Of a stretch of DNA of 64,000 nt, positions 593-21,274 are shown piece by piece. This DNA comes from Candidatus Hydrogenisulfobacillus filiaventi (lineage in GTDB: Bacteria; Bacillota; Sulfobacillia; Sulfobacillales; R501): contig LR778114.1 of assembly GCA_902809825.1 (NCBI GenBank), positions 806,001 through 870,000 of the forward strand. Reading direction: 5' to 3'. The notes beneath the pieces were generated by a model, which was not told the origin of the DNA, did no database searches, and saw nothing but the letters and a program-made list of their open reading frames with translations. The position numbers and the translations under genes were made by a program. Positions within the stretch are counted from its first letter, which is position 1; every line of letters starts with the position of its first letter.

Positions 593-1456
593 ATGCTGCC
601 GGAGGCCGGCATGCGGGTCCTGGTGCAGGGCATCAGCGGGCGTCAGGGGCGCTTTCACGTGCGCACCATGCGCGAGTACGGCACCCCGGTGGTGGCGGGG
701 GTGGCGCCGGGTCACGGCGGCACCGTCATCGAAGGGGTGCCGGTGTTTAATACGGTGGCGGCGGCGGTGGCGGCCACCGGCGCCACCGCCTCGGTGGTGC
801 TGGTGCCGGCGGCAGCCACCCTGGACGCCGCCTTCGAGGCCATGGCCCATGGCATCCGCCTCCTGGTGCTCATTCCCGAGCACGTGCCGGTGCAGGACGC
901 CATCGCCATCCGGGAGCAGGCCCGCCGCCTGGGGGTGACGGTGCTGGGCCCCAACACCTTCGGGGTGATCCGCCCCGCCCTGCGCCTGAAGCTCGGCATC
1001 ATGCCGGCGGAGGTGTACCGCCCGGGGCCAGTGGCCATCGCTGCCCGCTCCGGCACCCTGAGCTACGAGATCGCCGACGCCCTCACCCGCGCCGGCCTTG
1101 GTCAGAGCATCGCCCTCGGCATCGGGGGCGATCCGGTGGTCGGCTTCGGCTTCACCGACGCCTTGGCGGCCTTCGCCCGCGACCCCGGGACGCAGGCGGT
1201 GGTGCTGGTGGGGGAAATCGGGGGGACCGCCGAGGAGGAGGCGGCCCGCCTGCTGCCCGACCTGGGCAAGCCGGTGGTGGCCTACCTGGCCGGGCGTTTC
1301 GCCCCGCCCGGCCGCCGCATGGGTCATGCCGGGGCCATCATCGAGCGCGGGCAGGGCACCCTGGCCTCCAAGGAAGCCGCCCTCAGCGCGGGCGGCGCCC
1401 GGGTGGTGGATACCCCCCAGGCGGTCGTGCGGGCCCTGGCCGGACTGATCCCCTAG
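593..1456 (+). CDS. sucD: Succinyl-CoA ligase alpha subunit
   Basis: The 287-aa protein matches the alpha subunit in length and layout: an N-terminal CoA-binding Rossmann domain (GISGRQGRFHVRTM near residue 13) and a C-terminal ligase domain. His245 in RRMGHAGAII sits where the phosphohistidine of the family lies. The IAARSGTLSYE and GIGGDPVVGFGF motifs are well kept. The ATG at 593 has a strong purine-rich ribosome site; an internal ATG at 611 is an alternative. The family motif GPNCPG reads GPNTFG here, so the cysteine and proline at a CoA-site loop are missing. Related CoA ligases such as malate-CoA ligase remain possible, but SucD is the simplest call. Confidence 0.92.
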   Translation: MLPEAGMRVLVQGISGRQGRFHVRTMREYGTPVVAGVAPGHGGTVIEGVPVFNTVAAAVAATGATASVVLVPAAATLDAAFEAMAHGIRLLVLIPEHVPVQDAIAIREQARRLGVTVLGPNTFGVIRPALRLKLGIMPAEVYRPGPVAIAARSGTLSYEIADALTRAGLGQSIALGIGGDPVVGFGFTDALAAFARDPGTQAVVLVGEIGGTAEEEAARLLPDLGKPVVAYLAGRFAPPGRRMGHAGAIIERGQGTLASKEAALSAGGARVVDTPQAVVRALAGLIP

Positions 1457-1504
1457 CCTATGTGACAAAGGCCCAAGCGGCCCATGAGGCGGTATGGGCG
1501 GGGA

Positions 1505-1513
1505 TGCTATCAT
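1505..1513 (+). promoter_or_regulatory. Extended -10 promoter element of the heme operon
   Basis: TGCTATCAT is an extended -10 (TGn plus TATCAT) in the gap after sucD; no good -35 is visible. Transcription would begin near 1520, downstream of the upstream-most in-frame ATG at 1494. This supports a hemA start further in, at 1593. Confidence 0.45.
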
Positions 1514-1592
1514 TCATGCTAGCAACACGAGGGGACGATCCCGGCGGGGTGCCTGGGATGCCCGGCCGGGAAACCGCAGGGGGGCGAAGCCA

Positions 1593-2918
1593 TTGCGGAT
1601 CCAGGTGGTGGGCCTGAACCACGAGACCGCACCGGTGGAGGTGCGGGAGGTGGCGGGCTTCACGCCCGACAGCCTGCGCGCCGGTCTGGCGACCATCGGC
1701 GGGCTGCCCGGTCTGGAAGGGGCGGTGGTGGTCTCCACCTGCAACCGCACCGAGGTCTATACAGCCGGGGAGGTCGCCCTGGCCGACATCCTCAGCTGGT
1801 GGGAACGGACCACCGGCACGCCGCGGGGCACCTTCAGCGACCACCTCTACTGGTACCGCGACACCGCTGCCATCGAACACCTCTTTCGCGTCGCCACCGG
1901 CCTCGACTCCATGGTGCTGGGTGAGACCCAGATCCTGGGCCAGGTGAAGGACGCCTACCAGGCGGCCCGGCTGGCCGGGGTGGCGGGCGGGCTGCACCGG
2001 GTCTTCCACCACGCCTTCGCGGTGGGCAAGCGCGCCCACACCGAGACCGGCATCAGCCAGAATGCCCTCTCGGTAGGGCATGCGGTGGTGGAGCTGGCGC
2101 GCAAGGTGTTCGGGGAGCTGACCGACACCGCGGTGCTGGTGGTAGGGGCCGGGGAGACGGGCCAGCTGGTCACCCGCCACCTGGTGGCCGCCGGCGCCCG
2201 CCGCATCACCATCGTCAACCGCACTGCCGCCAAGGCGCGCGAGCTGGCCGACGAGCTGGGTGCCCGGGCGGTGCCTTGGACGGCCCTGGGCGAGGCCCTG
2301 CGCGAGAGCGACATCGTCGTGAGCTCCACCAGCGCGCCGGAGCCCGTCATCACCCCCGCCCTGATGCGGGCGGCCACCCGGGGGCAGGAGGAACGGTTCC
2401 GGTTCCTGTTTGACCTGGCGGTGCCGCGGGACATCGACCCCGCGGTGGTCCGCCTCGGCCGCGGCATTTTCCTGTACGATATTGATGACCTTGACTCGGT
2501 GGTGGAAGCCAACCGCCAGTACCGGCGGAAGGAGGCGGTCAAGGTCGAGCGCATCATCCAGGAGGAGACAGCACGCTTGCAGGAGGAACTGGGTGCAGCG
2601 GAAGTGGCGCCCGTCATCCGCTCCCTGCGCGCCAAGGCGGAGAGCATCCGCCGGCAGGAACTCGACCGGGTGTACGCCAAGCTGCCCGGATTGGGGGAGC
2701 GGGAACGGGCGGTGGTGGATGAGGCCTTGCGGCTGGTGGTGAACAAGCTGCTCAACGACCCCATGGTGAGCCTGCGCCGGTGGGGGCAGAGCGAGGAAGG
2801 GGCCGTGTACCTGGCGGCGGTCAGCGAGCTGTTCCGCCTGCAGCCGGAGGACGGCAAGGCCGCGGCGGCGCGGCCGGAGGCGGCGGCCACGCTGGCGCCG
2901 GAAGGGGGGCGGCCGTAG
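1593..2918 (+). CDS. hemA: Glutamyl-tRNA reductase
   Basis: This enzyme reduces glutamyl-tRNA(Glu) with NADPH to glutamate-1-semialdehyde, the first step of C5 heme synthesis. From a TTG start at 1593 the protein is 441 aa. The catalytic cysteine in STCNRTE then falls at residue 50, exactly where the family has it, which decides the start against the ATG at 1494. Other hallmarks are GLNHETAPVEVRE at the N-terminus, the LGETQILGQVKDAY tRNA-recognition region, an NADPH Rossmann motif VVGAGETGQLV, and a C-terminal helical dimerisation domain. It heads the hemA-hemX-hemC-hemD-hemB run. A GGGGGG stretch at 1579-1584 serves as ribosome site. Confidence 0.93.
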   Translation: MRIQVVGLNHETAPVEVREVAGFTPDSLRAGLATIGGLPGLEGAVVVSTCNRTEVYTAGEVALADILSWWERTTGTPRGTFSDHLYWYRDTAAIEHLFRVATGLDSMVLGETQILGQVKDAYQAARLAGVAGGLHRVFHHAFAVGKRAHTETGISQNALSVGHAVVELARKVFGELTDTAVLVVGAGETGQLVTRHLVAAGARRITIVNRTAAKARELADELGARAVPWTALGEALRESDIVVSSTSAPEPVITPALMRAATRGQEERFRFLFDLAVPRDIDPAVVRLGRGIFLYDIDDLDSVVEANRQYRRKEAVKVERIIQEETARLQEELGAAEVAPVIRSLRAKAESIRRQELDRVYAKLPGLGERERAVVDEALRLVVNKLLNDPMVSLRRWGQSEEGAVYLAAVSELFRLQPEDGKAAAARPEAAATLAPEGGRP

Positions 2919-2952
2919 CCGGGCCCGAGGCCGAAGACGGGGCGGGGATGGG

Positions 2953-3795
2953 ATGGCCTTAACGGGCGTGGTGCTGATGGCCGCCACGCTCCTCGCCTAC
3001 AGCGTCGCATCCGTCTACTATGTGGGGGCGCTGTACGACCTCCGGCGGGCGGCGGGCGCGGAGCGGGCGACGGCGGCCGGATGGGCGGCCCAGACCTTAT
3101 GGCTGGGACACCGGGCGTGGGTGCTCCAGGGATTTCCGGCGGTCACCCTCTATGACTGGGTGACCTTTTTCACATGGTTGATGGTGGGCGGTTTTCTGGC
3201 CCTGGCGTGGGCGGGGCGGCGGGGGGACGCCTGGACCCCGCGCCGCAGCCACATCGGCAGCTTCCTGGTGCCGGTGCTGACCCTGCTGGAGCTGGCGGCC
3301 CAACTGCTGTTTACGGGGCCGGCCAGCCCGTTCCGCCGCTACCCGGCCTGGCTGCCCACCCACATCTTCCTGGTCACCCTGGGCGACGCGGCCTTTCTTC
3401 TGGCCGCGGTGGCCGGTACCATGTATGTGGAAAAGGAGCGGGAGCTCAAACACAAGCGCCTGCGCGTCTTCTATTACGAACTGCCCCCGCTGGAGGTGCT
3501 GGACGCCTGGGGGGCGCGGCTGGTGACGGCCGGGGTGGTGCTGTTCCTGGCCGGCATGGTGGTGGGGGCCATCGGCTCCAAGGCCGATTACGGCAGCTAC
3601 TGGAACTGGAACCCCAAGGAAACCTGGTCCCTGGTCAGCTGGAGCGCCTACCTGGCCTACCTGGGCCTGCGCCGGTTCGCCGGCTGGCGCGGCTACCGGC
3701 CGGCGGTGTGGTCGATGGTGGCCTTCCTGCTGGTGGTGGCCAACGTGTTCGCGGTGAGCCTCCTGTTCCCTGGGGACCACGCCTACAACATCTGA
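2953..3795 (+). CDS. hemX: HemX/CcsA-family cytochrome c assembly membrane protein
   Basis: A 280-aa polytopic membrane protein with about eight hydrophobic segments. It carries the tryptophan-rich heme-handling signature of the CcsA/CcmC family, YWNWNPKETWSL, near residue 217. In Bacillus the equivalent gene hemX sits between hemA and hemC and is reported to affect the HemA level, so position and family agree. Histidines on outer loops, such as HIGSF and HIFLV, could serve as heme ligands. Whether it acts in cytochrome c maturation or in HemA control cannot be decided from sequence. Confidence 0.8.
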   Translation: MALTGVVLMAATLLAYSVASVYYVGALYDLRRAAGAERATAAGWAAQTLWLGHRAWVLQGFPAVTLYDWVTFFTWLMVGGFLALAWAGRRGDAWTPRRSHIGSFLVPVLTLLELAAQLLFTGPASPFRRYPAWLPTHIFLVTLGDAAFLLAAVAGTMYVEKERELKHKRLRVFYYELPPLEVLDAWGARLVTAGVVLFLAGMVVGAIGSKADYGSYWNWNPKETWSLVSWSAYLAYLGLRRFAGWRGYRPAVWSMVAFLLVVANVFAVSLLFPGDHAYNI

Positions 3796-3814
3796 ACCGG
3801 AAGGGGGCCCCAAG

Positions 3815-4726
3815 GTGGCGGAGATGCTGGTCATCGGCAGCCGCGGCAGCCCCTTGGCCTTGAAGCAGACGGAGATGGTAGCGGCGGCGCTGGCCGCGGC
3901 GGGGGTGCCCACCCGGGTGGAGGTGGTGCACACCGAGGGGGACCGCGTGCTGGACCGCCCCTTGAGCGCCCTGGGCAGTGTGGGCGTGTTCGCCGGCGAG
4001 CTGGAGTCGGCCCTGGCGGCGGGGCGGGTGGACCTGGCGGTGCACTCCCTGAAGGATCTGCCCGCCCAGCTGGCTCCCGGCCTGATGCTGGGGGCGCTGC
4101 TGGAGCGGGAGGATCCCCGCGATGTGTTGCTGTCCCGGGTGGCGGACCTGGAGGACCTGCCCCCCGGCGCCCGGATCGGCACCTCCAGCCTGCGCCGCAC
4201 CGCCTTCCTCCGCCACCGGCGCCCCGACCTCGTGGTGGTGCCGGTGCGGGGCAACCTGGGCACCCGGCTGCGCAAGTGGCGGGAGGAGGGTTGGGAGGCC
4301 CTGACCCTGGCGGCGGCCGGGCTTTTGCGCATGGAACTGGGGGACCTCATCCGCCAGTACCTGGATCCCTGGTGGATGGTGCCCGCCCCCGGCCAGGGGG
4401 TGATCGCGGTCGAGGTGCGGGCGGCCGATACCCGGGTGCGGGAGCTGGTGGCGGGTCTGGACCATGCCCCCACCCGCCGGCAGGTGGAGGCGGAGCGGGC
4501 GGTACTGGCGGCGGTGGGGGCCGGCTGCCAGATGCCGCTCGGCGCCTATGCCCGCTGGCGGGAGGATGGGAGGCTGGAGGTGGCGGGGCAGGCGGCCTCC
4601 CCCGACGGTCGCCGGCTGCTGCGTGCGGAACGGGCCGGCCCGCCGGAGGCGGCGGCCGCCCTGGGGGAGGCAGTGGGCCGGGCCCTGCTGGATCAGGGGG
4701 CCCGGGACCTGCTGAATCCGGCATGA
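3815..4726 (+). CDS. hemC: Porphobilinogen deaminase (hydroxymethylbilane synthase)
   Basis: The enzyme joins four porphobilinogen units into hydroxymethylbilane. The 303-aa protein has the usual three-domain length. It shows the N-terminal IGSRGSPLALKQ, the SLKDLPAQL active-site stretch with its aspartate and lysine, the arginine-rich GTSSLRRTA, and the dipyrromethane-cofactor cysteine at residue 238 in VGAGCQMPLGA. Start is GTG, set by the GGAAGGGGG ribosome site about ten bases upstream. Its stop overlaps the hemD start (ATGA). Confidence 0.95.
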   Translation: MAEMLVIGSRGSPLALKQTEMVAAALAAAGVPTRVEVVHTEGDRVLDRPLSALGSVGVFAGELESALAAGRVDLAVHSLKDLPAQLAPGLMLGALLEREDPRDVLLSRVADLEDLPPGARIGTSSLRRTAFLRHRRPDLVVVPVRGNLGTRLRKWREEGWEALTLAAAGLLRMELGDLIRQYLDPWWMVPAPGQGVIAVEVRAADTRVRELVAGLDHAPTRRQVEAERAVLAAVGAGCQMPLGAYARWREDGRLEVAGQAASPDGRRLLRAERAGPPEAAAALGEAVGRALLDQGARDLLNPA

Positions 4727-6084
4727 CAGGGCGGCCGCAGCGGCGGGTGAGCTGGGTGGGCACCGGGCCCCTGCCCGGTTCGGTGGCCGCAGCCGGGGCC
4801 GCCCGCCTGGCGGAGGCCCGAAGCGTGCTGCCCTGGCCGGGCCTGGACCCCATCCCCTGGCTGAGTTGGGCGCCGGAGGCGGCTTGGCGGCTGCCGGAGG
4901 CCTGGGACCCAGAGGCCCCGGTGCCGGGGGTGCGGCTGGTGCCGTGGTGGGCGCCGGTGGCGGCCCTCCAGCGGGAATGGGCGGCGGCCCGGGTGGCGGG
5001 GGTGGAGCCGGAGTGGATTCCCGGCCCGGCCGTCTGGGCGGAGCTGGCGGCGGTGGCGGGCCCCGAGGCGCTGCCGGCGGTGACGGCGGAGGCAGGGGCC
5101 GGTCCGCTGCCCGGGCCCGGGGTGCCGGACCTGGGGATGACGGTGGAGGAGCCCGGGGCGGCCGCCCGTCTGCTGGCGGCGGGGTGGGCCCCCGGCACAC
5201 CGGTGACGGTCTACCAGGCCGACGGCCGCAGCCTCACCTGGACCCCGGCGGTGCTGGAGACGGTTGAGGCCCTGGGCACCCCGGCCGCCTGGCGGCTGGG
5301 CCGGGGGGCGGCTGCCGGCGGTCGGCGCTGGCCCCGCATCTGGTTCCTGCGCGAACCCCCCGCGCCGGCGGTGCTGGAGGCGGTCCGGGAGCGGGGGGTG
5401 GTGCCGGTGGTGGCGCCGGTGAGCGCCACCGCCCCCGCCCCCGACCCGGCGGCGGTGATGGCCATGGTGACGGAGCTGGACCGCTACGCCTGGGTGGTCT
5501 TCACCTCGCGGACGGCGGTGGAGGCCTTCGCGGCCGCCCTAAGCGGGGCGGGGGCGGACATCCGGCGCCTGACCGCGCGGGTGGCGGTGGTGGGCGCGGA
5601 AACCGCCCGTGCCCTGCGCACCCGCTTGCACCTGGAGCCGGACCTGGTGGCGACCGACCCCCGGCAGGAGGGGCTGGTGGCGGAGCTGGTGCCCCGGATC
5701 GGGGCGGGGGAGCGGGTGCTGCTGCCGGGCGGCGACCTCAACCGGCCCGGGCTGGCGGACGCGATCCGGGCCCGCGGGGGCCGGGCGGAACCGGTCGTGC
5801 TCTACCGCACCGTCCCCCGGCGGCTGCCCGCCCTGCTGGCCAAGGCCCTGGCCGAGGGCGGGGTGGACGGGCTGGTGGTGACCGCCCCCTCCAGCCTGCA
5901 GCATCTGCTGGAGGCCCTGGACGCCGACGGCCGGGCCGGCCTCGAGCAGGTGGCGATTGCCAGCATCGGGCCCACCACCACCCGGGCCCTGCTGGAGGCG
6001 GGGCTGCGGCCGGCGGTGGAGACGGCGCGCCCCTCGGTGGCGGCCCTGGCGGAGGCCCTGGCGGACCGGCTGGTGCGGGCTTAG
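4723..6084 (+). CDS. hemD: Uroporphyrinogen-III synthase fused to a degenerate SUMT-like N-terminal domain
   Basis: The ATG overlaps the hemC stop and gives a 453-aa protein, about 200 residues longer than a plain HemD. The C-terminal part (residues about 205-453) has the HemD layout: a two-domain fold with [21 protein letters not shown] and a final [17 protein letters not shown]...IGPTTTRAL. The N-terminal part begins [14 protein letters not shown] and contains EWIPGP and [11 protein letters not shown]. These resemble, in order, the start, the proline-rich middle and the late strand of uroporphyrinogen-III C-methyltransferase (CobA). CobA-HemD fusions are known in Bacillota, but here the SAM-binding glycine motif and the GDP loop are not recognisable. 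I infer that the methyltransferase half is decayed or repurposed. Confidence 0.82.
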
Positions 6085-6106
6085 GGCCCGGGAAAGGAGG
6101 ATGCCC

Positions 6107-7087
6107 ATGTTTCCGGTGGAACGCCCCCGCCGCCTGCGGCAGACGGAGGCCCTGCGGGCCATGGTGCGGGAGACGCACTTGGCCGTGGATCAGCTCATCT
6201 ACCCCCTGTTTGTGCGGCCCGGGCAGGGGGTGAAGCACCCGGTGACCTCCATGCCCGGGGTCTACCAGTGGTCGCCTGACACCCTGGTGGAGGAGGTGGG
6301 CCGGGCGCGGGAGGTGGGGGTCAACCGCTTCCTGCTGTTCGGGGTTCCCTCCCACAAGGATGCGGTGGGTTCGGAGGCCTACGACGAGAACGGCATTGTC
6401 CAGGTGGCCCTGCGCACCTTGAAGCGCGCCTACCCGGACGCCGTGCTCATCGCCGACCTCTGTCTGTGCGAATACACCGACCACGGCCACTGCGGGCTCA
6501 TCGACCCCGAGAGCCAGGAGGTGCTGAACGACCCGACCCTGGACCTGCTGGCGCGCACCGCGGTGGTGCAGGCGCAGGCGGGGGCGGACATCGTGGCCCC
6601 TTCCGACATGATGGACGGCCGGGTGGGGGCCATCCGCCGCGCCCTGGACGGGGCGGGTCTCAACCACACCCCCATCCTGTCCTACGCCGTCAAGTACGCC
6701 TCCGCCTTCTACGGGCCCTTCCGGGAGGCAGCGGAGAACGCCCCCCAGTTCGGGGACCGGCGCAGCTACCAGATGGACCCTGCCAACCGCCGCGAGGCGG
6801 CGCGGGAAGCGGGTCTGGATGTGGCGGAGGGGGCCGACCTGTTGCTGGTCAAGCCCGCCCTGCCCTACCTGGATGTGTTGGCCGACGTGGCCGCCGCCAG
6901 TCCGGTGCCGGTGGGTGCCTACCAAGTTTCGGGCGAATATGCCATGATCAAGGCGGCCAGCCTGAACGGGTGGCTGGATGAGGAGCGCACGATGATGGAA
7001 AGCCTGACCGCTATCCGCCGGGCCGGAGCCGCCTTTATCGTCACCTACTTCGCACCGGAGGTGGGGCGGCGGCTCCGGCTGGGGTAG
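6107..7087 (+). CDS. hemB: Delta-aminolevulinic acid dehydratase (porphobilinogen synthase)
   Basis: Condenses two aminolevulinate molecules into porphobilinogen. The 326-aa product carries both Schiff-base lysines: Lys196 in SYAVKYAS and Lys249 in LVKPALPY, close to the E. coli positions. The cysteine-rich metal loop [13 protein letters not shown] indicates the zinc-type enzyme. Two ATGs lie at 6101 and 6107; the AAAGGAGG at 6093-6100 abuts the first, so the second has the proper spacing and is chosen. It is the last recognised gene of the heme run; hemL and later steps are not in the window. Confidence 0.95.
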
Positions 7088-7112
7088 CGGCCATCCCGGA
7101 GGGGGTGGAGAA

Positions 7113-7292
7113 ATGCCCGACGTCACGCGTCCCTCCCGGTCCCGTGAGCCCGAGAACCTGTCGGTGGCGCTGTTTGAGATCAATGCCGACAGCGCCTTCC
7201 GGGACCACCGGCGGGAGGTGCTCGATTCCAGCCTGGGCCTGGTGGAGGAGGATGCCCCCCTGCATCCGCCCCGCCGGCGGCCCGTCCACTAG
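7113..7292 (+). CDS. Small hypothetical protein (59 aa)
   Basis: A short frame with a strong ribosome site (GGAGGGGGTGGAG) and an ATG 25 bases after hemB. The product is charged and proline/arginine-rich at both ends, with a more regular middle ([32 protein letters not shown]). No cysteines, signal or membrane segment. Third codon positions are strongly GC-rich as in the neighbours, which favours real coding. I do not recognise a family. It is probably cotranscribed with hemB and ends just before a long palindrome. Confidence 0.5.
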
Positions 7293-7316
7293 GGGAAGAA
7301 ACCGGCCCCTGCCGGC

Positions 7317-7342
7317 GGCCGCCCGTCCCGGGACGGGCGGCC
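7317..7342. repeat. 26-bp perfect palindrome before selA
   Basis: Bases 7317-7342 form an exact self-complementary sequence centred on CCCGGG between the 59-aa gene and selA. A perfect palindrome can act as a dimeric protein site or a strong RNA hairpin. No T-run follows, so a classical terminator is unlikely; it may be an RNA barrier or attenuator. Confidence 0.5.
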
Positions 7343-7371
7343 GTCCTGTGCCCGGGGCGGAGGAGGAGACC

Positions 7372-8787
7372 GTGGGGGAGATTGCGGAGCGCCGGCAGCT
7401 GCCGGCGGTGCAGCGGCTGATGGAGGCGGTGCAGCGGCAGGCGCCGGACCTGCCCCGGCACTGGGTGCACCGCGGGGTGGCGGAGACCCTGGAGGCGGCG
7501 CGGCGGCGGCTGGAGGCCGGCGGGCGGCTCACCGAGGAGGCCCTGGCCGCGGAGGCCGTAGGCCGGGCCCGGGCCCTGGACCGTCCCCACCTGCGGCCGG
7601 TGATCAACGCCACCGGCGTGCTCATCCATACCAACCTGGGCCGATCGCCCCTGCCGGCGGATATCATGGCCCACGTGGCGGCGGTGGCGGCGGGCTACTC
7701 CACCCTCGAGTTCGACCTCGAGGCCGGGCGGCGGGGCTCCCGTCATGACCATGTAGCGGGCCTGCTGGCGGAGGTGAGCGGGGCGGAGGCGGCGCTGGTG
7801 GTCAATAACAACGCCGCCGCCGTGCTGCTGGCCCTCTCCACCCTGGCGGCCGGGCGGGAGGTGGTGGTCTCGCGCGGGCAGCTGGTGGAGATCGGGGGCT
7901 CCTTCCGGGTGCCGGAGGTGATGGCGCAGTCGGGCGCCATCCTGCACGAGGTAGGGGCCACCAACAAGACCCACCTGGCGGATTACGAGCGGGGCATCAA
8001 CGAACGCACGGCCCTTCTGCTTAAGGTTCACACCTCCAACTTCCGCGTGCTGGGTTTCACCGCCCAGGTGCCGACCGCGCAGCTGGTGGGCCTGGCCCGC
8101 CGCCACGGGCTGCCGGTGATGGAGGACCTGGGCAGCGGCGTGCTGCTGCCTCTTACCCTGGATGGCTACACCGAGCCCCAGGTGCAAGAAGTGGTGGCGG
8201 CCGGGGTGGATGTGGTCACCTTCTCCGGGGACAAGCTCCTGGGCGGACCCCAGGCAGGGGCGGTGGTGGGCCGCCGGGATCTGATCGCGGCCATGAAACG
8301 CCATCCCCTGGCGCGCGCGGTGCGGGTGGACAAGATGACCCTGGCTGCGCTGGAGCTGGTCCTGCGCCGCTATGTGGAAGGACGGGCGGAGGAGCTGCCC
8401 CTCTGGCAGATGCTGCACGCCGATCCGGAAGGCCTGCGCCGGCGGGCGCGCCGGCTGGCCGCCCGCATCCGGGGGGTGACGGGCGCCGCCGCCCGGGTGG
8501 GTGTCGTGCCTGACCAGTCCCAGGTGGGCGGGGGATCCATGCCCGCCACCCGCCTGCCGACCTGGGTGGTGACGGTGGAACCGCTGGCGGCTTCCGCGGA
8601 GGCCTGGGAGGCGGCCCTGCGGGCGGGGGAACCGCCGGTGATCGCCCGGGTGCAGCATGGCGCCCTCCGCTTCGACCCCCGCACCCTGTTGCCCGGGCAG
8701 GACCGGCAGCTGCCGGCGGTGCTAGCCGCCGCCTGGGCGCCCTGGCTGACCCCGGGCATGGCCGACGGGGACGAGCATAAGGTGTAA
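7372..8787 (+). CDS. selA: L-seryl-tRNA(Sec) selenium transferase (selenocysteine synthase)
   Basis: Converts seryl-tRNA(Sec) to selenocysteinyl-tRNA(Sec) using selenophosphate. The 471-aa PLP enzyme has the family N-terminal helical region, [17 protein letters not shown], a glycine-rich PLP site and the cofactor lysine at residue 288 in [12 protein letters not shown]. The GTG at 7372 follows GGAGGAGG; an upstream in-frame GTG at 7348 is less well placed. The partners selB, selC and selD are not in this window. The gene implies that the organism makes selenoproteins. Confidence 0.92.
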
Positions 8788-8839: not shown

Positions 8840-9856
8840 GTGAAGCGGCCCGTGGGCACCCTGTTGTTGCTGATCCTGGTGGGCGCACGCCTGCTGCTGG
8901 CACCCGAACGGGGCGCAGGCACGGGAACGGGGGGCAACTGGGTCCGGCTGGATCCCCGGCCCGCCCGCCTGGTGGTGTCCGGCGGTCAGCCCTACCTGGT
9001 GCCGGGACCCGCCGGGGGAGCCCTGCGCCTGGTGCCCACTGCGGCCGTTATCCGCGCCCGCCCTGCTCCCGCGGCATCCCAGCTGCGGCCGATGCCCTCG
9101 GGTCGCGGTTACTGGGCGGTAACGGTGGCCAGCGGCGGGCGCCTGCTGGGCCCGGCGGCCGCCTGCCCCGGGCACAACCTGGTGGCGGTGGCCCCCCGCG
9201 GCGCGGGCAGCTGGTGGCTGGACCCCGGCACCGGACAGGTCTACCCGGGACGGGGCGTGGCCCCAGCGCCGGCTCCGCTGCCAGTCCGGGGCGTGAGCCG
9301 GGTGCAGTGGGCCCCGGACGGGCATGCGGCGGCGCTGGTGGGGCAGGGAACAGCCGGCTCCGGCGTCTACCTGTGGGACGGGGGCGGACGCCTGCGGCTG
9401 GTCCGTCCGCTGGCGGGGCGGGTCGGGGTACGCGGGCTCGGGTTCACCCGTGATGACGGGCTTCTGGTGGCGGGTGCCGACGGGCGGGTGTGGCGGCAGG
9501 GCCGTTCCCTGCCGCTGCCGGGCGGGGAGGCCGCCTGGGTGTCGCGGGCGGCGGACGCCGCCGCCGTACAGCGCGGGCAGCGCCTGTGGGTCTGGCAGGA
9601 TGGCCGCCGCTGGCAGGTGGGGCTGGCGCGCGGGTGGAAGCTCCAGGGCCCGGTGCGCTTCGGGCGTGGCCAGGCGCTGGCGGCCCTGGTGGTGGGCCCC
9701 GACCACCGCCTGCGGTTGTTGGTGGCGCAGGGCCCCAGCCGTTGGGAGGTAGGCCTGCCCGCCCGGGCGCAGGCCGAGGTCCTGGGCTGGATCGGGGGCC
9801 ATTGGGTCCTGGTGTCCACCGCCCGCGGCGTCTATGCGTGGTGGAGCGGGCAGTAG
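8840..9856 (+). CDS. Putative exported beta-propeller-like protein
   Basis: A 338-aa protein beginning with a short basic end and one hydrophobic segment (residues 6-22), which fits a signal anchor. The rest is made of repeating short strands rich in Gly, Trp and Asp, for example SRVQWAPDGHAAAL, GLGFTRDDGLLVAGADGRVW and HWVLVSTARGVYAW, suggesting a WD40- or YncE-like propeller. No catalytic motif is seen. GTG start with AGGGGGGAGT ribosome site. It stands alone between selA and the tRNA cluster; function unknown. Confidence 0.65.
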   Translation: MKRPVGTLLLLILVGARLLLAPERGAGTGTGGNWVRLDPRPARLVVSGGQPYLVPGPAGGALRLVPTAAVIRARPAPAASQLRPMPSGRGYWAVTVASGGRLLGPAAACPGHNLVAVAPRGAGSWWLDPGTGQVYPGRGVAPAPAPLPVRGVSRVQWAPDGHAAALVGQGTAGSGVYLWDGGGRLRLVRPLAGRVGVRGLGFTRDDGLLVAGADGRVWRQGRSLPLPGGEAAWVSRAADAAAVQRGQRLWVWQDGRRWQVGLARGWKLQGPVRFGRGQALAALVVGPDHRLRLLVAQGPSRWEVGLPARAQAEVLGWIGGHWVLVSTARGVYAWWSGQ

Positions 9857-9950: not shown

Positions 9951-10025
9951 GGGCGAATAGCTCAGCGGTAGAGCACCGCCCTTACAAGGCGGGGGTCACA
10001 GGTTCGAGCCCTGTTTCGCCCACCA
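9951..10025 (+). tRNA. tRNA-Val (anticodon UAC)
   Basis: Complete cloverleaf: acceptor GGGCGAA pairs with TTCGCCC, anticodon stem CCGCC/GGCGG encloses loop CTTACAA, and the T-loop GGTTCGAGCC is canonical. The CCA end is encoded. First of three tRNAs from one promoter. Confidence 0.97.
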
Positions 10026-10036
10026 GGGAGATTGTC

Positions 10037-10114
10037 GGAGGCGTGGTGTAGCCGGCCTAACACGCGTGCCCGTCACGCACGAGATCACGGGTTCGAATCC
10101 CGTCGCCTCCGCCA
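10037..10114 (+). tRNA. tRNA-Asp (anticodon GUC)
   Basis: Acceptor GGAGGCG pairs with CGCCTCC, the discriminator base is G as expected for Asp, and CCA is encoded. The anticodon stem CGTGC/GCACG encloses loop CCGTCAC, which gives anticodon GUC. Position 33, normally U, is C in this gene; the stem pairs leave no alternative register. Confidence 0.93.
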
Positions 10115-10122
10115 TTTTTTTC

Positions 10123-10198
10123 GCCGCGGTAGCTCAGCCGGTAGAGCAGAGGACTGAAAATCCTCGTGTCGGCGGTTCGAGTCCGCCCTGCGGCACCA
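10123..10198 (+). tRNA. tRNA-Phe (anticodon GAA)
   Basis: Acceptor GCCGCGG pairs with CTGCGGC (one G-T pair). Anticodon stem GAGGA/TCCTC encloses CTGAAAA. Discriminator A and encoded CCA. The A73 matches the variable base of the pheS T-box at 47835. Confidence 0.97.
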
Positions 10199-10202
10199 CG
10201 GG

Positions 10203-10232
10203 AACCCCGCAAGCGACCAGGCTTGCGGGGTT
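10203..10232 (+). terminator. Terminator of tRNA cluster 1
   Basis: A 12-bp perfect stem (AACCCCGCAAGC and its complement) with a 6-nt loop follows tRNA-Phe, then TTCATCAGTTTT. The stem closely resembles the terminator behind tRNA-Val(GAC) at 22884. Confidence 0.75.
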
Positions 10233-10472
10233 CATCAGTTTTGCGGGGCTGGGGTTCGGCGGGCCGCCCGGCTGGGAATCCGCGGGGCCGCCCGGTGGCC
10301 GGCCACGCCCCATCTCCTGTCAGGCAGCCGGCGCCGCGTCCGCGGCCGGCTGGTCCGGACGGCCGGGGGAGGGACCGGGCATCGGGTCCTTTCCCGGCAT
10401 TCGTCACCATCCGACAGACAACCTGTCGCTGCCGGGAGTACGGTGAGGAAAAAGCGCGGGCAGGGAACACCG

Positions 10473-12008
10473 ATGCAGGAACAGGAGCTGTGGGTAGCGC
10501 TCCGGGGAGCGGCCCGGCGGAGCGGGCCGGTCATCGTCCGGGCCCTGGCCCACCAGGTGGTGCTGGATACCTGGATGAACGGGGAGGTGGAGGAGGACGT
10601 CACCTTCGAGGCCGACGGGATCCTGACCGCGGCCACCGCCCGCTGGGCGCGGCGGGCGCAGGAGGCCGGCGCCGTCTTCCCCGGTTATCCCATGGCGGCG
10701 GCCTACGTGGAGGCGGTGTTTTCGGACCTTCTGACCGGGACGGCGCTGTATGCTGCCCAGCAGCGCAGCGGCCGGCCCAGGGTGACCGCCCGGGATGCCC
10801 AGGCGGCGGTCGAGCGGCTGACCGCCTGGCTGGAGGGGGAGGCGGAGGGACTGACCGCAGCCGGCCGCTATCATGGCGTCATCGCCCTGCACGAGGACCT
10901 CAACGCCCTGGCCTATTACGGCCGGGTGCCGCAGGAGGACTTCCTGCTCGGCACCCGTCACCGGCCATGGTCGGACCGGCTGTTGACCCCGGAGTTCGCG
11001 GTCTACCGGCAGGCCGGGCTGGTGGCCACAGTGGCCGACGGCAGCGGCGACTGGGTGGAGTTGACCGACCGGGGGCGGACGCTGCTGGCGGACCTGCGCT
11101 CGGTGCTGGAGGAAGCCGGCGAGTTCGCCTGGCGGGCCAACGCGCAGCGCTGGGTCATCTTCGGGGAGACGGACTATGACGCTGTGTACCATCGGGTGCT
11201 GCCCACCATCAACGCGGACACCCGGGCCTTCCTGGACAGCCTGCCGCTGACGGCAGGGGCCCAGGTGCTGGAAGTGGGGGCGGGCACGGGACGGGTGACC
11301 TTTGACTTGGGGCTGGCCGACCGGGTAGCGGCGGTGGGCGGGCGCCTGACGGTGGTGGAGCCCTCCGCGGCCCTCCTGCGGGTGCTGCGGCAGAAGCAGG
11401 CGGCCCACCCCCGTATGCCGGTGGCGCTGGTGCAGGGGGTGGCGGAGGCGCTGCCGTTTGCGGACGACAGCTTCGACCTGGTGATAGGGGTGGCCATGCT
11501 GCACTTCACCGAGGTCGAGCAGGCGCTCCGGGAGCTGGCCCGGGTGACGCGGCCGGGGGGATGGGTGGCGACCGCCAACTCCGACGGGCGCAACGACGTG
11601 CTCGCCATCCCGATGGTGGCCAGCTGGTTCCGCCCGCTCATCGATCTGGCGGCCAAACTGGGGGTGCCGCCCGGGGAGCGGCAGGGGGTGCCGCGGGAGC
11701 GGGTGGAGGCGGCTTACGCCGCGGCCGGCCTGGTGGACCTCACCACCACCGTCCGTGCCGGCTGGATGTCGGCCGAGGACCCCGACGCGTTCCTCGCGTT
11801 TGTGCTGCGGGGCGGTGCCTTCTTCCAGAATGTGCTGGCCCGGATTCCCTACCGCGAGCGCTGGGCGCTCCTGCAGCGGCTGGCCCGGGAGGGGCCGGCG
11901 TGGCGGGCCCGGACCCAGCCGGAGGAGCAGCGGGCGGCGGGGGCGGGCTATATCGTCCTGGGGCGCAAGCCAGCGGGCCGGACGTCCCTCCGCCGTTCAG
12001 TTGGTTGA
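10473..12008 (+). CDS. Two-domain SAM-dependent methyltransferase, paralogue 1
   Basis: The 511-aa product (ATG at 10473; an in-frame GTG at 10443 is possible) has a class I methyltransferase domain near residues 240-400. Its motif I is VLEVGAGTGRVTFD, the acidic end of strand 2 is LTVVEPSAA, and post-motif residues include LPFADDSFDLVIGVAMLHF and RVTRPGGWVATAN. The first 230 residues form a helical domain with HEDLNALAYYGR, HRPWS and YRQAGLV. It ends in a winged-helix-like stretch (VELTDRGRTLLADLRSVLEEAG). I do not recognise this domain. The next gene has the same architecture, so the pair arose by duplication. Substrate unknown. Confidence 0.75.
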   Translation: MQEQELWVALRGAARRSGPVIVRALAHQVVLDTWMNGEVEEDVTFEADGILTAATARWARRAQEAGAVFPGYPMAAAYVEAVFSDLLTGTALYAAQQRSGRPRVTARDAQAAVERLTAWLEGEAEGLTAAGRYHGVIALHEDLNALAYYGRVPQEDFLLGTRHRPWSDRLLTPEFAVYRQAGLVATVADGSGDWVELTDRGRTLLADLRSVLEEAGEFAWRANAQRWVIFGETDYDAVYHRVLPTINADTRAFLDSLPLTAGAQVLEVGAGTGRVTFDLGLADRVAAVGGRLTVVEPSAALLRVLRQKQAAHPRMPVALVQGVAEALPFADDSFDLVIGVAMLHFTEVEQALRELARVTRPGGWVATANSDGRNDVLAIPMVASWFRPLIDLAAKLGVPPGERQGVPRERVEAAYAAAGLVDLTTTVRAGWMSAEDPDAFLAFVLRGGAFFQNVLARIPYRERWALLQRLAREGPAWRARTQPEEQRAAGAGYIVLGRKPAGRTSLRRSVG

Positions 12009-12115
12009 TTCTCGGGAGGCGCCTTACTTTTCGCCCGCGTTCGACAGGACGGCGGCGCCGCTTGCACTATGCTCAGGCCGTAACCTATCCACCATGGTGT
12101 TACGGGCGGTGAGGC

Positions 12116-13612
12116 ATGGACGCAACCCGGGATGGCTACCGGCTGCTGCTGGAGGGCATGGAACGCGTCGGGCCCCTGATCCGGGAGGCCCTGGCCCGGG
12201 AGGTGGTCCTGGCAACGTGGGGGAGCGGGGAGCAGGAGGCGGTGATGACGGCCGCGGCAGGGGCTCAGCTGGCGGCCGCGGTGGCCGGCTGGTCCCGGGC
12301 GGTGACCGCAGCGCGGGTGGTGTTCCCGGGCGCGGTTCTGGGCGGGGACGATGTGCCGGCCATGCTGCGGGACCTCCTCACCGGCACCGCCCGCCAGCGC
12401 CTCGCCCGCCATCATGCCCCCCGGCAGGTGGAGCCCGGGCACATCCGGGAGGCGCTGGACCGGGTAGGGGGGTTTGTGGCCGAGCACGGCTGGACCGCGT
12501 TGGCCCGGTATTACCTCGTCATCAGCCTGCACGAGGACCTGAATGCCCTGGCCTATTACGGTCGCATGTCGGAGGCGGCGTTTCTTTGGGGCACCCTCCA
12601 CCGGCCGTGGTCGGCCCTCAACCTGGGTCCGCAGCTGCGGCGCTACCGGCAGGCGGGGCTGGTGCGCCGCGTGGCGGACGCCCCGGCCCCGGCGCTGGAG
12701 CTGACCTCCCGCGGGCATGTGGTGCTGGAACGCCTGCGGGCGGTGCTGGACGCGGCGGGGGAGACCGCATGGCGCGCCAACCTCCAGCGGGAGGTCCTGC
12801 TCGTGGACGGCACCGATTACGATCGGGCCCTGTATCGCGTGTTTCCGGAGAGCGACGCCTTCCTGGAGGCCTTCTGCCGGCAGCTGCCGCTGCCGGCGGG
12901 GGCGCAGGTGCTGGAGGTGGCGGCCGGCGCCGGGCGCCTCACTTTCGACGCCGGCCTGGCCGGGCGGGTCGCGGCCGCCGGCGGGCGGCTGGTGGCAGTG
13001 GAGTCCCTGGCCCCCCTACGCGAACGGCTGGAGGCCAAGCGGCGCATCCGGGGGGCGGCCGGGCTGGATGTAGTGGCGGGGGAGGCCGAGCGGCTGCCGT
13101 TTCCGGATGGCAGCTTCGACCTGGTAGTGTCGGCGGCGCCCCATGCCTTCGCAGACCTCGGGCGGGCGGTGGGGGAGATGGTGCGGGTCAGCCGGTCCGG
13201 CGGCAGCGTTCACCTGGCCAATCCCCAGGGGGATGCCGGGGCGGTGCCGTTGGTGGCCGTCTGGTTCCGTCCGCTGGCGCGCCTGGCTGAACGGGCCGGG
13301 AGCCCGGGCGCCGAACGGCCCGGGCTGCCCCCGGGCCGGCTGGCGGAGGCCTTGCGGCAGGCCGGTCTCCGGGCCGTGCGCGTCCGCACCGTGCCCGGAC
13401 GGGTGCGGGCGGCGGATGCGGCCGCCTTCCTCACCGTGGCGCTGCGCAGCGGGCACCTGACCCGCAGCCTGCTGGCCCGCATGCCGGTCCAGGAGCGCCA
13501 AGACCTGCTGCGGCGGCTGGTGGCGGAGGGCCGCCGGCTGGCGGCGGTGACCCCGGCGGCGGAGCAGGAGGCGGCAGTTGTGCGGGAAATGGTGTGCGGC
13601 CGGCGGCCCTGA
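12116..13612 (+). CDS. Two-domain SAM-dependent methyltransferase, paralogue 2
   Basis: A 498-aa paralogue of the preceding gene along its whole length. The shared N-terminal markers are DLLTGTA, SLHEDLNALAYYGR, HRPWSALN and YRQAGLV; the winged-helix-like segment reads LELTSRGHVVLERLRAVLDAAGE. In the methyltransferase domain motif I is VLEVAAGAGRLTFD and the post-motif is LPFPDGSFDLVVSAAPHAF. The first glycine of motif I has become alanine (GAGTG to AAGAG), and the second copy lacks the acidic residue before it, so its SAM binding may be altered. ATG start with GGTGAGG upstream. A weak promoter (TTGCAC, 18 bp, TATCCA) could lie at 12062-12091. Confidence 0.72.
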   Translation: MDATRDGYRLLLEGMERVGPLIREALAREVVLATWGSGEQEAVMTAAAGAQLAAAVAGWSRAVTAARVVFPGAVLGGDDVPAMLRDLLTGTARQRLARHHAPRQVEPGHIREALDRVGGFVAEHGWTALARYYLVISLHEDLNALAYYGRMSEAAFLWGTLHRPWSALNLGPQLRRYRQAGLVRRVADAPAPALELTSRGHVVLERLRAVLDAAGETAWRANLQREVLLVDGTDYDRALYRVFPESDAFLEAFCRQLPLPAGAQVLEVAAGAGRLTFDAGLAGRVAAAGGRLVAVESLAPLRERLEAKRRIRGAAGLDVVAGEAERLPFPDGSFDLVVSAAPHAFADLGRAVGEMVRVSRSGGSVHLANPQGDAGAVPLVAVWFRPLARLAERAGSPGAERPGLPPGRLAEALRQAGLRAVRVRTVPGRVRAADAAAFLTVALRSGHLTRSLLARMPVQERQDLLRRLVAEGRRLAAVTPAAEQEAAVVREMVCGRRP

Positions 13613-18535: not shown

Positions 18536-19279
18536 CTAGACCCGTTCTGGGTCCTCCCCGGCCCCGGCCACTTTGGCCCGGAAGCGGCGGGCGGCTTCTG
18601 TGAAGGCGCGGGTGGTCTCGGCCGGGTTCTGCTGTTTCAGGGTGACGCTTCCGAAGTGGTGGAGGAAGGTGTTGCGGGCGATGAGGAGGCGGTAACCCGC
18701 CCGGCGCACCCGCCAGGAGTAGTCATTGTCATCGAAGAAGCCGAGGGCGAAGCGGGCCTCGTCCAGCAGGCCCACCTCCTGCACCACCCGGCGCTTCACC
18801 ACCAGGCAGAAGCCGAGCAGGAAGTCGGTCTCCTCCCAGCAGTCGGGCCCGGCATTATAGCGCGCGGCCCAGGCTGGCATGGCGGACAGATCCCGGTAAG
18901 GCACCTCCACCTGCTGGCGGGGGGCGAAGCTGTAGTTGGTGACCGGCCCCACCATGCCCACGTCCGGGGCGCTGCCCAGGGCCCGCAGCAGGTTGTCGAG
19001 CCAGCCGGCTGTAACCAGCACGTCATTGTTCAGCAGGACCAGCACCTCCCCCCGGCTGCGCTCGATGCCCCGGTTAGTGCCGCCGGCATGGCCCTGGTTG
19101 ACCGGGTTGGCCACCACCACCGCCCCGGGCAGGCTGCGGAAGTAGGCCAGGGTGCCGTCGGTGGAGGCGTTGTCCACCAGCACCAGTTCGTAGGGGGGCG
19201 GGGTATGGGCCCGGATGCTGGCAATGGCCTGGCGGGTATAGGCCAACTGGTTATAGGCAGGGATGATGATACTGACCAT
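18536..19279 (-). CDS. Family 2 glycosyltransferase
   Basis: A 247-aa GT-A glycosyltransferase. It has the opening strand VSIIIPAYNQLAYTRQAI, the nucleotide-binding ELVLVDNASTDGTLAYF, NQGHAGGTNRGIE, the DXD-like VLLNNDVLV, and FALGFFDDNDYSWRVRRAGYRLL near the acceptor site. ATG at 19279 preceded by GGGAGGACGCC on the minus strand. It is the last gene of the minus-strand set 21274 to 18536 and resembles rhamnosyl- or galactofuranosyl-transferases in layout; the sugar is not identifiable. Confidence 0.85.
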   Translation of the reverse strand: MVSIIIPAYNQLAYTRQAIASIRAHTPPPYELVLVDNASTDGTLAYFRSLPGAVVVANPVNQGHAGGTNRGIERSRGEVLVLLNNDVLVTAGWLDNLLRALGSAPDVGMVGPVTNYSFAPRQQVEVPYRDLSAMPAWAARYNAGPDCWEETDFLLGFCLVVKRRVVQEVGLLDEARFALGFFDDNDYSWRVRRAGYRLLIARNTFLHHFGSVTLKQQNPAETTRAFTEAARRFRAKVAGAGEDPERV

Positions 19280-19302
19280 GGCGTCCTCCCGGTCAGGGCG
19301 GT

Positions 19303-20664
19303 TTAGGGGACAGCGGGCAATGGCGGCTTGCGGGCGTCCAGCTTGAGCTGCCAGGCGGGGTAGGCTGGATCGCGGCGAATGGCGGCGAAGCCAGCCTGCT
19401 GCAGCACCACCGTCAGCGACACCGTGTCCCAAAGCGAGCGGTGAAGGTCGGGCGCGTCCTCGCCCGCGCCCAGCAGGTTGGCGGTGACCGCCCCCGCCGA
19501 CACCTGGCCGGCGGTATAGGCCCGGCAGGTATGGGCCAGGTCGGGGGTGATGACGGTGAGGACCCCGCCCGGTTTCAGCACCCGGCCCCATTCCTGCAGC
19601 ACCGCTGGCACCTCCGCCGGGGCGAAGTGCTCCAGGACATGGGAGGCCCGCACGACATCGGCGTGGTCATCGGGGAAGGGCAGGGCGCGCAGGTCGCACA
19701 CCACCTCCACACACGGCCCCAGGCGGCCGTCGCAGTGAATCCAGTCGGGGTTGCCGGCCCCCCCGGCCGGTTGGGTCCCCGAGCCCAGGTCCAGGCGGAT
19801 GCGCGGGGGCCGGGTGAGGGGGGCGTAGCCCCGCCGGTTGCGGAAGCGGCCGTCGTAGTGCCAACGGACCTCGTTGACGAACAGGGTCTCCCAGTCCACC
19901 CCCAGCCCCTGCCACTTGCGGTTGAAGTGGTCCCAGGCCTCCTGCGCCACCGCCGCCTCCGCCGCCGGGTTCAGGCGGGCGAAGGAGGCATGGCCGAAGT
20001 GGTGCACGAACACGTCTTCGGCCACGTACAGGCGGTAGCCGGCCAGGCGCAGCCGGAGGCTGAGGTCGGCATCATCCGCCCCCAGCCGGCAACCGGGGTC
20101 GAGGCCGCCCATCGCCCGCAGGAGGGCGGTGCGCATCAACAGGCAGGCGCCCGAGAGGCTTTTGGCCTCGGTGAAGGTGCCGGCCGCGGTTTCTGCCCAG
20201 GCGCGGGCAAAGGCCGTAAAAGCGGCCCCGTCGTTGCCGGGGTCCAAGTAGGGCAGCGGCCCGTAGGCCACCACGTAATCCTGTTTAGCCCCCAGGCCCG
20301 AACCGAGGGGTCCGACCGCCCCCGCATCCGGCAGGAGGTCGAGCTGCCGGTGCAGCCGGCTGAGCCAGCCCGGGGGCAGCAGGAGGTCGTTATTGAGCAG
20401 GCAGACCGTTTCGCCGCCGGCGGCCGCCAGCCCCTGGTTGACGGCGGGGGCGAAGCCCCGGTTTTCGGGGTTGGTCAGCAGCACCAGGCCCCGGCGCAGG
20501 CCCTGCGCCCGCGGCAGCGTCCGGACCCAGTCTACGGTGCCGTCCCCGGAGGCGTTATCCACCACGATCAGCTCATAGGGGGCGTCGGTGTGCGCCTCCA
20601 GCGCCGCCAGGCAGCGCCGGGTGTGAGCGAGGTTGTTCCAGGTGACCACAATGACGCTGGTCGT
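19303..20664 (-). CDS. Bifunctional family 2 glycosyltransferase / SAM methyltransferase with apparent ACG start
   Basis: From 20664 the product is 453 aa. Residues 1-270 form a GT2 domain: SVIVVTWNNLAHTRR, ELIVVDNASGDGTVDW, NRGFAPAVNQGL, VCLLNNDLLL and GCRLGADDADLSLRL. Residues 290-450 form a class I methyltransferase-like domain: IRLDLGSGTQPAGG, VVCDLRALPFPDDHADVVRASHVLEHF, RVLKPGGVLTVITPD. No ATG, GTG or TTG lies at the expected place. The strong AAAGGAGGGG is seven bases before ACG ACC AGC GTC, which fits MTSVIVVTWN. The next GTG (20649) would cut into the first strand. It sits between two other glycosyltransferase genes. Confidence 0.8.
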   Translation of the reverse strand, partial: TTSVIVVTWNNLAHTRRCLAALEAHTDAPYELIVVDNASGDGTVDWVRTLPRAQGLRRGLVLLTNPENRGFAPAVNQGLAAAGGETVCLLNNDLLLPPGWLSRLHRQLDLLPDAGAVGPLGSGLGAKQDYVVAYGPLPYLDPGNDGAAFTAFARAWAETAAGTFTEAKSLSGACLLMRTALLRAMGGLDPGCRLGADDADLSLRLRLAGYRLYVAEDVFVHHFGHASFARLNPAAEAAVAQEAWDHFNRKWQGLGVDWETLFVNEVRWHYDGRFRNRRGYAPLTRPPRIRLDLGSGTQPAGGAGNPDWIHCDGRLGPCVEVVCDLRALPFPDDHADVVRASHVLEHFAPAEVPAVLQEWGRVLKPGGVLTVITPDLAHTCRAYTAGQVSAGAVTANLLGAGEDAPDLHRSLWDTVSLTVVLQQAGFAAIRRDPAYPAWQLKLDARKPPLPAVP

Positions 20665-20704
20665 GGAGGCCCCTCCTTTCTCCCTGCCGGTGGCGGGAGG
20701 CGGA

Positions 20705-21274
20705 CTAGCCGGCGCTCCGGTAGGCCGGATGCTGGCCGACCCGGTAGTGGTACAGCACGGCCGGGATGCGGATCTGGGTGCTGACGTCCTTGTGCGCCCG
20801 TTCCGCCCATTCGGTGTCTTCGCCCCAGCTGGCATCGCGGTAGCGGTGGCGGCGGGCGATGCGGCGGGCATAGCACATCAGATGGTTCGGCTTGCGGTAA
20901 TAGAAGGCCGGGTCCTCCCCCAGCTCGAACTCCACCCCGTAACGGGCGATCTTGCTGAACTGCCCCCGGAAGTGCACCTCCACGTCGAACACGATGCAAT
21001 CCGCCTCCGGGTGCTCCCGGATGGCCCCGTACAGGAGGTCGACGTAGTCCGGGGCCACGGTATCGTCATCGTCGATGAAGACCACGAAGTCGCCCTGGGC
21101 CATGTCCAGGAGCGCGTTGCGTTTCTCACCGATGCTGCGCCGCCGGTTGTCCACCAGCACCAGCACCTCCACATCCTTGCCGGCCGCCTGGGCGGTTAGG
21201 GTCTCCAGGGTGGGCGTCAGCAGCGGCAAGCGTTCCGGCAGCGCGGGAATGAGGATGGACAGTTTACAGCTCAT
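20705..21274 (-). CDS. Family 2 glycosyltransferase (short)
   Basis: A 189-aa GT-A protein: KLSILIPALPERLPLL, DVEVLVLVDNRRRSIGEKRNALLDMA, the DXD-containing DFVVFIDDDDTVAPDYVDLL, and ASWGEDTEWAERAHK near the acceptor site. It is shorter than usual, ending soon after the catalytic fold. ATG at 21274 with GAGAGGAGGG upstream on the minus strand. First gene of the leftward glycosyltransferase group. Confidence 0.85.
   Translation of the reverse strand: MSCKLSILIPALPERLPLLTPTLETLTAQAAGKDVEVLVLVDNRRRSIGEKRNALLDMAQGDFVVFIDDDDTVAPDYVDLLYGAIREHPEADCIVFDVEVHFRGQFSKIARYGVEFELGEDPAFYYRKPNHLMCYARRIARRHRYRDASWGEDTEWAERAHKDVSTQIRIPAVLYHYRVGQHPAYRSAG

Follow-up and report, generated by a model that had tools for sequence, protein, structure and literature searches.

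Two adjacent genes of the hydrogen-oxidising bacterium Candidatus Hydrogenisulfobacillus filiaventi encode members of a methyltransferase (MTase) family in which an apparently undescribed N-terminal domain, defined by an invariant HRPW signature, is fused to a class I SAM-dependent core and a conserved C-terminal extension. The domain is real and conserved, and it is almost always fused to the methyltransferase. Tentatively, the family is regarded as a group of stand-alone enzymes that would methylate small molecules.

The Gene Pair and Its Domain Architecture

The pair is located in the window, i.e., the whole stretch of 64,000 nucleotides that was analysed, which belongs to a genome of 2,570,337 bases in one contig. 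Both genes open with ATG and lie on the same strand, 107 bases apart. The relevant features of the window are as follows.

593-8784, + strand: sucD, then hemA-ccsB-hemC-hemD-hemB, then selA (E 2.9e-171)
8840-9856, + strand: ORF of 338 amino acids before the tRNA cluster, without Pfam match
9951-10198, + strand: cluster of tRNA-Val, tRNA-Asp and tRNA-Phe
10202-10233, + strand: terminator-like hairpin of 13 pairs between the tRNA cluster and copy 1
10473-12008, + strand: copy 1, 511 amino acids, N-terminal domain, class I methyltransferase and C-terminal extension (ORF, Pfam, alignment of 28 homologues)
10473-10847, + strand: copy 1, helical part of the N-terminal domain, residues 1-125, four long helices predicted, no fold match (domain model, fold search)
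10851-11117, + strand: copy 1, predicted winged helix of MarR-like fold, residues 127-215 (model, fold search)
10890-10925, + strand: copy 1, HEDLNALAYYGR, residues 140-151, end of helix 1 of the winged helix and start of its first strand (alignments, model)
10959-10970, + strand: copy 1, HRPW, residues 163-166, loop between helices 2 and 3 (46 of 47 sequences; model)
11250-11582, + strand: copy 1, class I methyltransferase core, residues 260-370 (Pfam)
11589-11972, + strand: copy 1, conserved C-terminal extension, residues 373-500, with WFRPL, P459 and R463 (alignments)
12116-13612, + strand: copy 2, paralogue of 498 amino acids with the most departed methyltransferase core of the near family (ORF, comparison with copy 1, count of conserved positions)
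12530-12565, + strand: copy 2, HEDLNALAYYGR, residues 139-150 (translation, alignment with copy 1)
12599-12610, + strand: copy 2, HRPW, residues 162-165 (translation, 47-sequence alignment)
12893-13225, + strand: copy 2, methyltransferase core, residues 260-370 (Pfam, alignments)

In a full-length alignment, the two proteins are 47% identical across 486 residues (E 2e-115), which is far above chance. The original prediction of tandem methyltransferase paralogues stands in this respect, albeit not as a pair of sister copies, because in the tree copy 1 groups with another copy of the genome. The fusion of the N-terminal domain to a class I methyltransferase, predicted likewise, is borne out by matches to Methyltransf_11 at residues ~260-370 (E 1.4e-19 in copy 1, 1.2e-12 in copy 2).

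The N-Terminal Domain

Residues 1-~240 gave no credible family match in any of the libraries Pfam, NCBIfam, PHROGs, and PADLOC; for Pfam and PADLOC, this includes scans member by member (26 and 30 members, respectively). The weak top Pfam hints among members include two winged-helix models, HTH_45 (E 0.02) and an ArnR1-like one (0.046). Searched as a profile against PDB sequences, the domain produced chance-level matches only, and literature searches returned no described family. Thus, the profile search of this domain of ~230 residues alone agrees with the earlier view of it as unrecognised, and the family together with its HRPW domain appears to be undescribed.

AlphaFold models were obtained from a three-row alignment of the window's two proteins and the homologue L009. 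The model of the N-terminal domain is good (pLDDT 83.5, pTM 0.82) and that of the full-length protein is poor (pTM 0.50), being limited by the restriction of the alignment to three rows. In the domain model, long helices at residues 3-26, 45-64, 76-99, and 106-122 are followed by a winged helix at residues 127-214. The first ~125 residues had no match in the fold search, and the viral fold library returned no significant match. For the winged helix, nearly all fold matches are winged-helix proteins, mostly of the MarR type, which cover ~100 residues with probabilities near 1, yet with a best E of 0.03. Model and fold matches concur with the predicted winged-helix-like end of the domain. According to the model, HRPW would lie within a stretch of 12 residues joining helix 2 (154-159) to helix 3 (172-180), a position occupied by a short turn in the helix-turn-helix of DNA-reading proteins. 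The N-terminal domain may accordingly be pictured as a helical segment leading to a winged helix of MarR-like fold, whose helix-turn-helix has an overlong loop that carries HRPW.

HRPW is found in 46 out of 47 aligned sequences, the remaining one reading HRPG, and the invariant positions of the broad domain alignment are G160, H163, R164, P165, and G201. It is this motif, and not HEDLNALAYYGR, that is invariant; the latter, originally proposed as an invariant functional site, is common to the pair but varies in the family, where relatives carry FEDLNALRYFRR, YENYGALAHYGR, and others in its place and where E141 of the region is not kept in 7 of the 47 sequences. The median pI of the domain over these 47 sequences is 5.4, and the net charge of helix 3 is -1.

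Methyltransferase Core and C-Terminal Extension

In most members of the family, the core displays motif I as E-x-G-x-G-T-G and an acidic residue at position 296. Profile, motif I, and the acidic residue after strand 2 all place copy 1 in the class I SAM-dependent methyltransferase superfamily; copy 2 is placed there by its profile, with motif I altered by G269A and both acidic residues kept. By sequence, the best solved relatives of the core are mostly small-molecule methyltransferases (RebM, AtmM, TleD, MitM), and the fold search concurs. All NCBIfam equivalog scores are far below cut-off. Methyltransferases of the UbiE/RebM type (Methyltransf_11/25; RebM 3bus, AtmM 6uv6, TleD 5gm1) are alike in core and usual motifs but lack an N-terminal domain of this kind. 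When the full-length protein was used, the fold search also yielded the winged-helix two-domain methyltransferases Rv2258c, MfnG, DsyB, and DnrK, in alignments of 326-361 columns with low TM-scores of 0.23-0.27 on the query.

Two-domain O/S-methyltransferases of the latter kind (Methyltransf_2, PF00891) exhibit the same order of winged helix and class I methyltransferase, and in the model of the present family the winged helix likewise directly precedes the methyltransferase in the chain. In contrast to them, family members have neither a PF00891 nor a dimerisation-domain match (Pfam, E ≤ 1), and they possess an extra helical part of ~125 residues, HRPW, and a long C-terminal extension. No PF00891 match was present in the own genome at E ≤ 1e-15; a search for PF21320 was without matches there and in the control genomes alike and hence carries no weight. 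Comparison of the N-terminal domain with the N-terminal domains of 11 Bacillota O-methyltransferases from one subgroup gave an hhalign probability of 0.2%, and membership in the O-methyltransferases was rejected on this profile comparison with one Bacillota subgroup. The best reading is that the family would be analogous to the two-domain O-methyltransferases rather than one of their members. Several Bacillota O-methyltransferases (PF00891) among L102-L113 continue at their C-terminus into a long fused part rich in Cys, GCxxYGKPHCPPN ... WAGPCxLC.

Divergence of Copy 2

Positions conserved in ≥90% of the near-family sequences are changed in copy 2 at 9 of 36 sites of the methyltransferase core, 3 of 26 of the N-terminal domain, and 2 of 17 of the C-terminal part; the corresponding numbers for copy 1 are 1, 0, and 1. 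The core substitutions include, in copy 1 numbering, G269A, T272A, P297S, H344A, T346A, and P361S, and motif I is changed from EVGAGTG to EVAAGAG. The loss of a glycine from motif I had been predicted correctly (G269), but the acidic residue that was supposed to be lost with it is retained (E267), as is E296 after strand 2. Copy 2 is further set apart by an end branch of 0.94, compared to 0.32-0.62 in its sister copies, by an aberrant letter make-up, and by a pI of the N-terminal domain of 9.7 versus the acidic family median; its winged helix is basic (pI 10.1), with a net charge of +3 on helix 3. Its core is 50-61% identical to the paralogues and therefore does not look like that of a decaying gene. 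Copy 2 probably represents a divergent paralogue, with SAM binding perhaps preserved and catalytic activity uncertain.

The six intact copies of the genome form one clade (support 100/99), within which copy 1 pairs with the 2,115 kb copy (99/96), the copy at 156 kb coming next, while copy 2 sits at the base without a settled position. Therefore, the tandem pair is not a fresh duplication. Among the family contexts read there was no further tandem pair, which makes a dedicated pair unlikely as a family trait.

Distribution and Amplification of the Family

The genome contains seven family copies, i.e., the six intact ones and one at 1,106 kb that is broken by frame changes. In this pseudogene (1106257-1107600 of the genome; L014:7129-8601), HEDLNALGYYGS and HRPW are still legible. 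In a sample that covered the phylum, the family is patchy within the class and rare outside it, with the scan of the genome collection being based on a single query sequence that detects close relatives only. At E ≤ 1e-60 it is present in 12 of 61 genomes, including the own one, and the profile of the N-terminal domain matches 30 of the 154 genomes of the class, some of them with 4-7 copies. Three other classes, each searched around a known match, contributed one genome out of 83, 20, and 63, respectively; horizontal transfer would be the simplest explanation for these isolated members. Plasmid and phage records were without a match to the N-terminal domain, and the idea of a mobile-element origin was dropped on that ground.

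Separate amplifications are evident in the tree, where the four G057 copies group together (84/92) and the four of G033 lie inside a tight clade. In the sets amplified lineage by lineage, copies are 46-62% identical, and over 1081 pairs of sequences the identities of the N-terminal domain and of the methyltransferase are correlated with r = 0.76. Divergent members repeat the order of N-terminal domain, methyltransferase core, and C-terminal extension; exceptions are L072, a copy split over two frames, and L099, a partial frame in G057. The latter (L099:1336-2040, 235 amino acids) matches positions 5-125 only, i.e., the helical part, and would be a domain occurring alone or else a remnant. In L101:2-3316, an open frame of 1105 amino acids, the family occupies residues 614-1105; the preceding 613 residues may be genuinely fused to it or may just reflect an open frame in the surrounding DNA.

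In five divergent sequences from two clades (L058/L063 and L059/L069/L070), no usable motif I is present, and the second clade is also devoid of the acidic residue after strand 2; HRPW is kept in all five. Since motif I is lost in 5 of 47 sequences while HRPW persists, the function of some members is not methylation. Within these clades the methyltransferase-like domain, with identities of 55-69%, is conserved no less than the N-terminal domain with 48-61%, which points to changed function rather than decay. The five proteins are likely pseudoenzymes.

Genomic Surroundings

The position of the pair right after a tRNA cluster had been taken as a hint at RNA. The adjacency is incidental; the hairpin at 10202-10233, the strong one of two terminator-like sites found in the region versus 1.0 expected, intervenes, and a tRNA gene is near 1 of 23 other family contexts and absent from the other 22. 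The link to tRNA or RNA was dropped for these reasons. Genes in 23 family contexts were called from G+C content by codon position, a simple criterion that performs poorly in genomes of low G+C and by which certain frames were overlooked or joined (e.g., the L012 copy). No neighbour gene family is shared by more than two or three of these contexts, and the recurring neighbours looked at are common domains. A conserved neighbourhood was rejected, since the neighbour shared by L010 and L082 is a chemotaxis-signalling domain only, in proteins that are otherwise different.

Elsewhere in the window, selA suggests selenocysteine use in the genome. An ORF of 522 amino acids at 19306-20871 on the minus strand combines a family 2 glycosyltransferase with a methyltransferase domain of which just the C-terminal half is present (Pfam positions 47-94), and a second glycosyltransferase follows it at 18539-19591.

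Proposed Function and Alternatives

In two-domain O-methyltransferases, the winged-helix domain serves dimerisation, forms a wall of the substrate site, or does both. By analogy, SAM would be bound in the Rossmann core by motif I and the acidic residue 296, the C-terminal extension would close over the pocket, and the winged-helix module with its invariant HRPW loop would provide for dimerisation and/or one wall of the substrate site, with diverged copies acting on different substrates. Such methylation of small molecules is favoured, if tentatively, because of the nearest relatives of the core, the two-domain methyltransferase matches, and the mostly acidic N-terminal domain, in which the 12-residue loop replaces the short turn; core motifs are moreover intact in most members, the genes stand alone with no recurrent neighbours, and lineage-by-lineage amplification at the identities given above would be expected from substrate diversification. 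Set against this are the lack of a substrate and of pathway neighbours in the 23 contexts, domain profiles unlike those of O-methyltransferases, the low TM-scores of the two-domain matches, the loss of motif I in five sequences, and the poor full-length model, which does not fix where HRPW would sit with respect to the pocket. The acidic domains together with the overlong turn argue against DNA reading, and hence a transcription regulator, whose MarR-like winged helix would bind DNA and whose methyltransferase-like domain would sense SAM/SAH or another ligand, is held to be improbable. It would account for the invariant N-terminal domain and for clades that retain its invariants where the SAM motif is gone, and the MarR-type fold matches and the basic winged helix of copy 2 are in its favour. 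However, the likeness to MarR, PcaV, and TubR is one of predicted fold only, the methyltransferase fusion sets the family apart from them, no regulator family in Pfam is matched, and recurrent target genes were not found nearby in the 23 contexts. Rather unlikely, though a little less so, is that the HRPW domain would be a new ligand- or partner-binding module of constant function, to which the methyltransferase is attached as an effector that became non-methylating on two or more occasions and is undergoing remodelling in copy 2; the family would then be a scaffold from which repeated amplification within single lineages produces both enzymes and pseudoenzymes.

A large dedicated N-terminal domain carrying an invariant motif could also recognise a protein, RNA, or DNA target for methylation, and the core has a single weak match to a phage tRNA-methyltransferase (E 2.5e-6). 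A macromolecular substrate is nevertheless doubtful, with the core closest to small-molecule enzymes, the tRNA proximity dismissed above, and the occurrence of 1-7 diverged copies in 30 of 154 genomes a misfit with a housekeeping RNA target. The original suggestion of copy 2 as a regulatory or inactive partner, taken here as an inactive regulatory one that would form a heterodimer with copy 1, draws on the adjacency of the genes, the long branch, and the excess of changed core positions; it is given an equally small chance in view of the retained E267 and E296, the level of identity to the paralogues, the non-sister relationship, and the absence of further tandem pairs from the contexts read, and active methyltransferases with Ala for the first Gly of motif I also occur. 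That the family is Mad2 of the methylation-associated defence system (MADS) is hardly credible. The PADLOC mad2 model matches both proteins at residues ~235-440 (E 3e-14), but this is the generic methyltransferase part and not a specific match over the protein, the N-terminal domains are without a mad2 match, and no recurrent partner genes that would make up a multi-gene MADS locus were found in the 23 contexts. The identity was rejected on the promiscuity of the model, which also matches 314 of 398 Bacillota genomes. Calls resting on this model (PDLC04134) alone are unreliable, as 13 of 14 control genomes match.

Implications

Without a substrate, the advance stays at the level of annotation. 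It nevertheless comprises an apparently undescribed domain defined by its HRPW signature and a family that fills six intact genes of a 2.57 Mb genome and was independently amplified elsewhere in the class. As the SAM motif has been lost in two clades with the domain conserved, the family offers a test case for how an enzyme turns into a pseudoenzyme while its architecture stays fixed.
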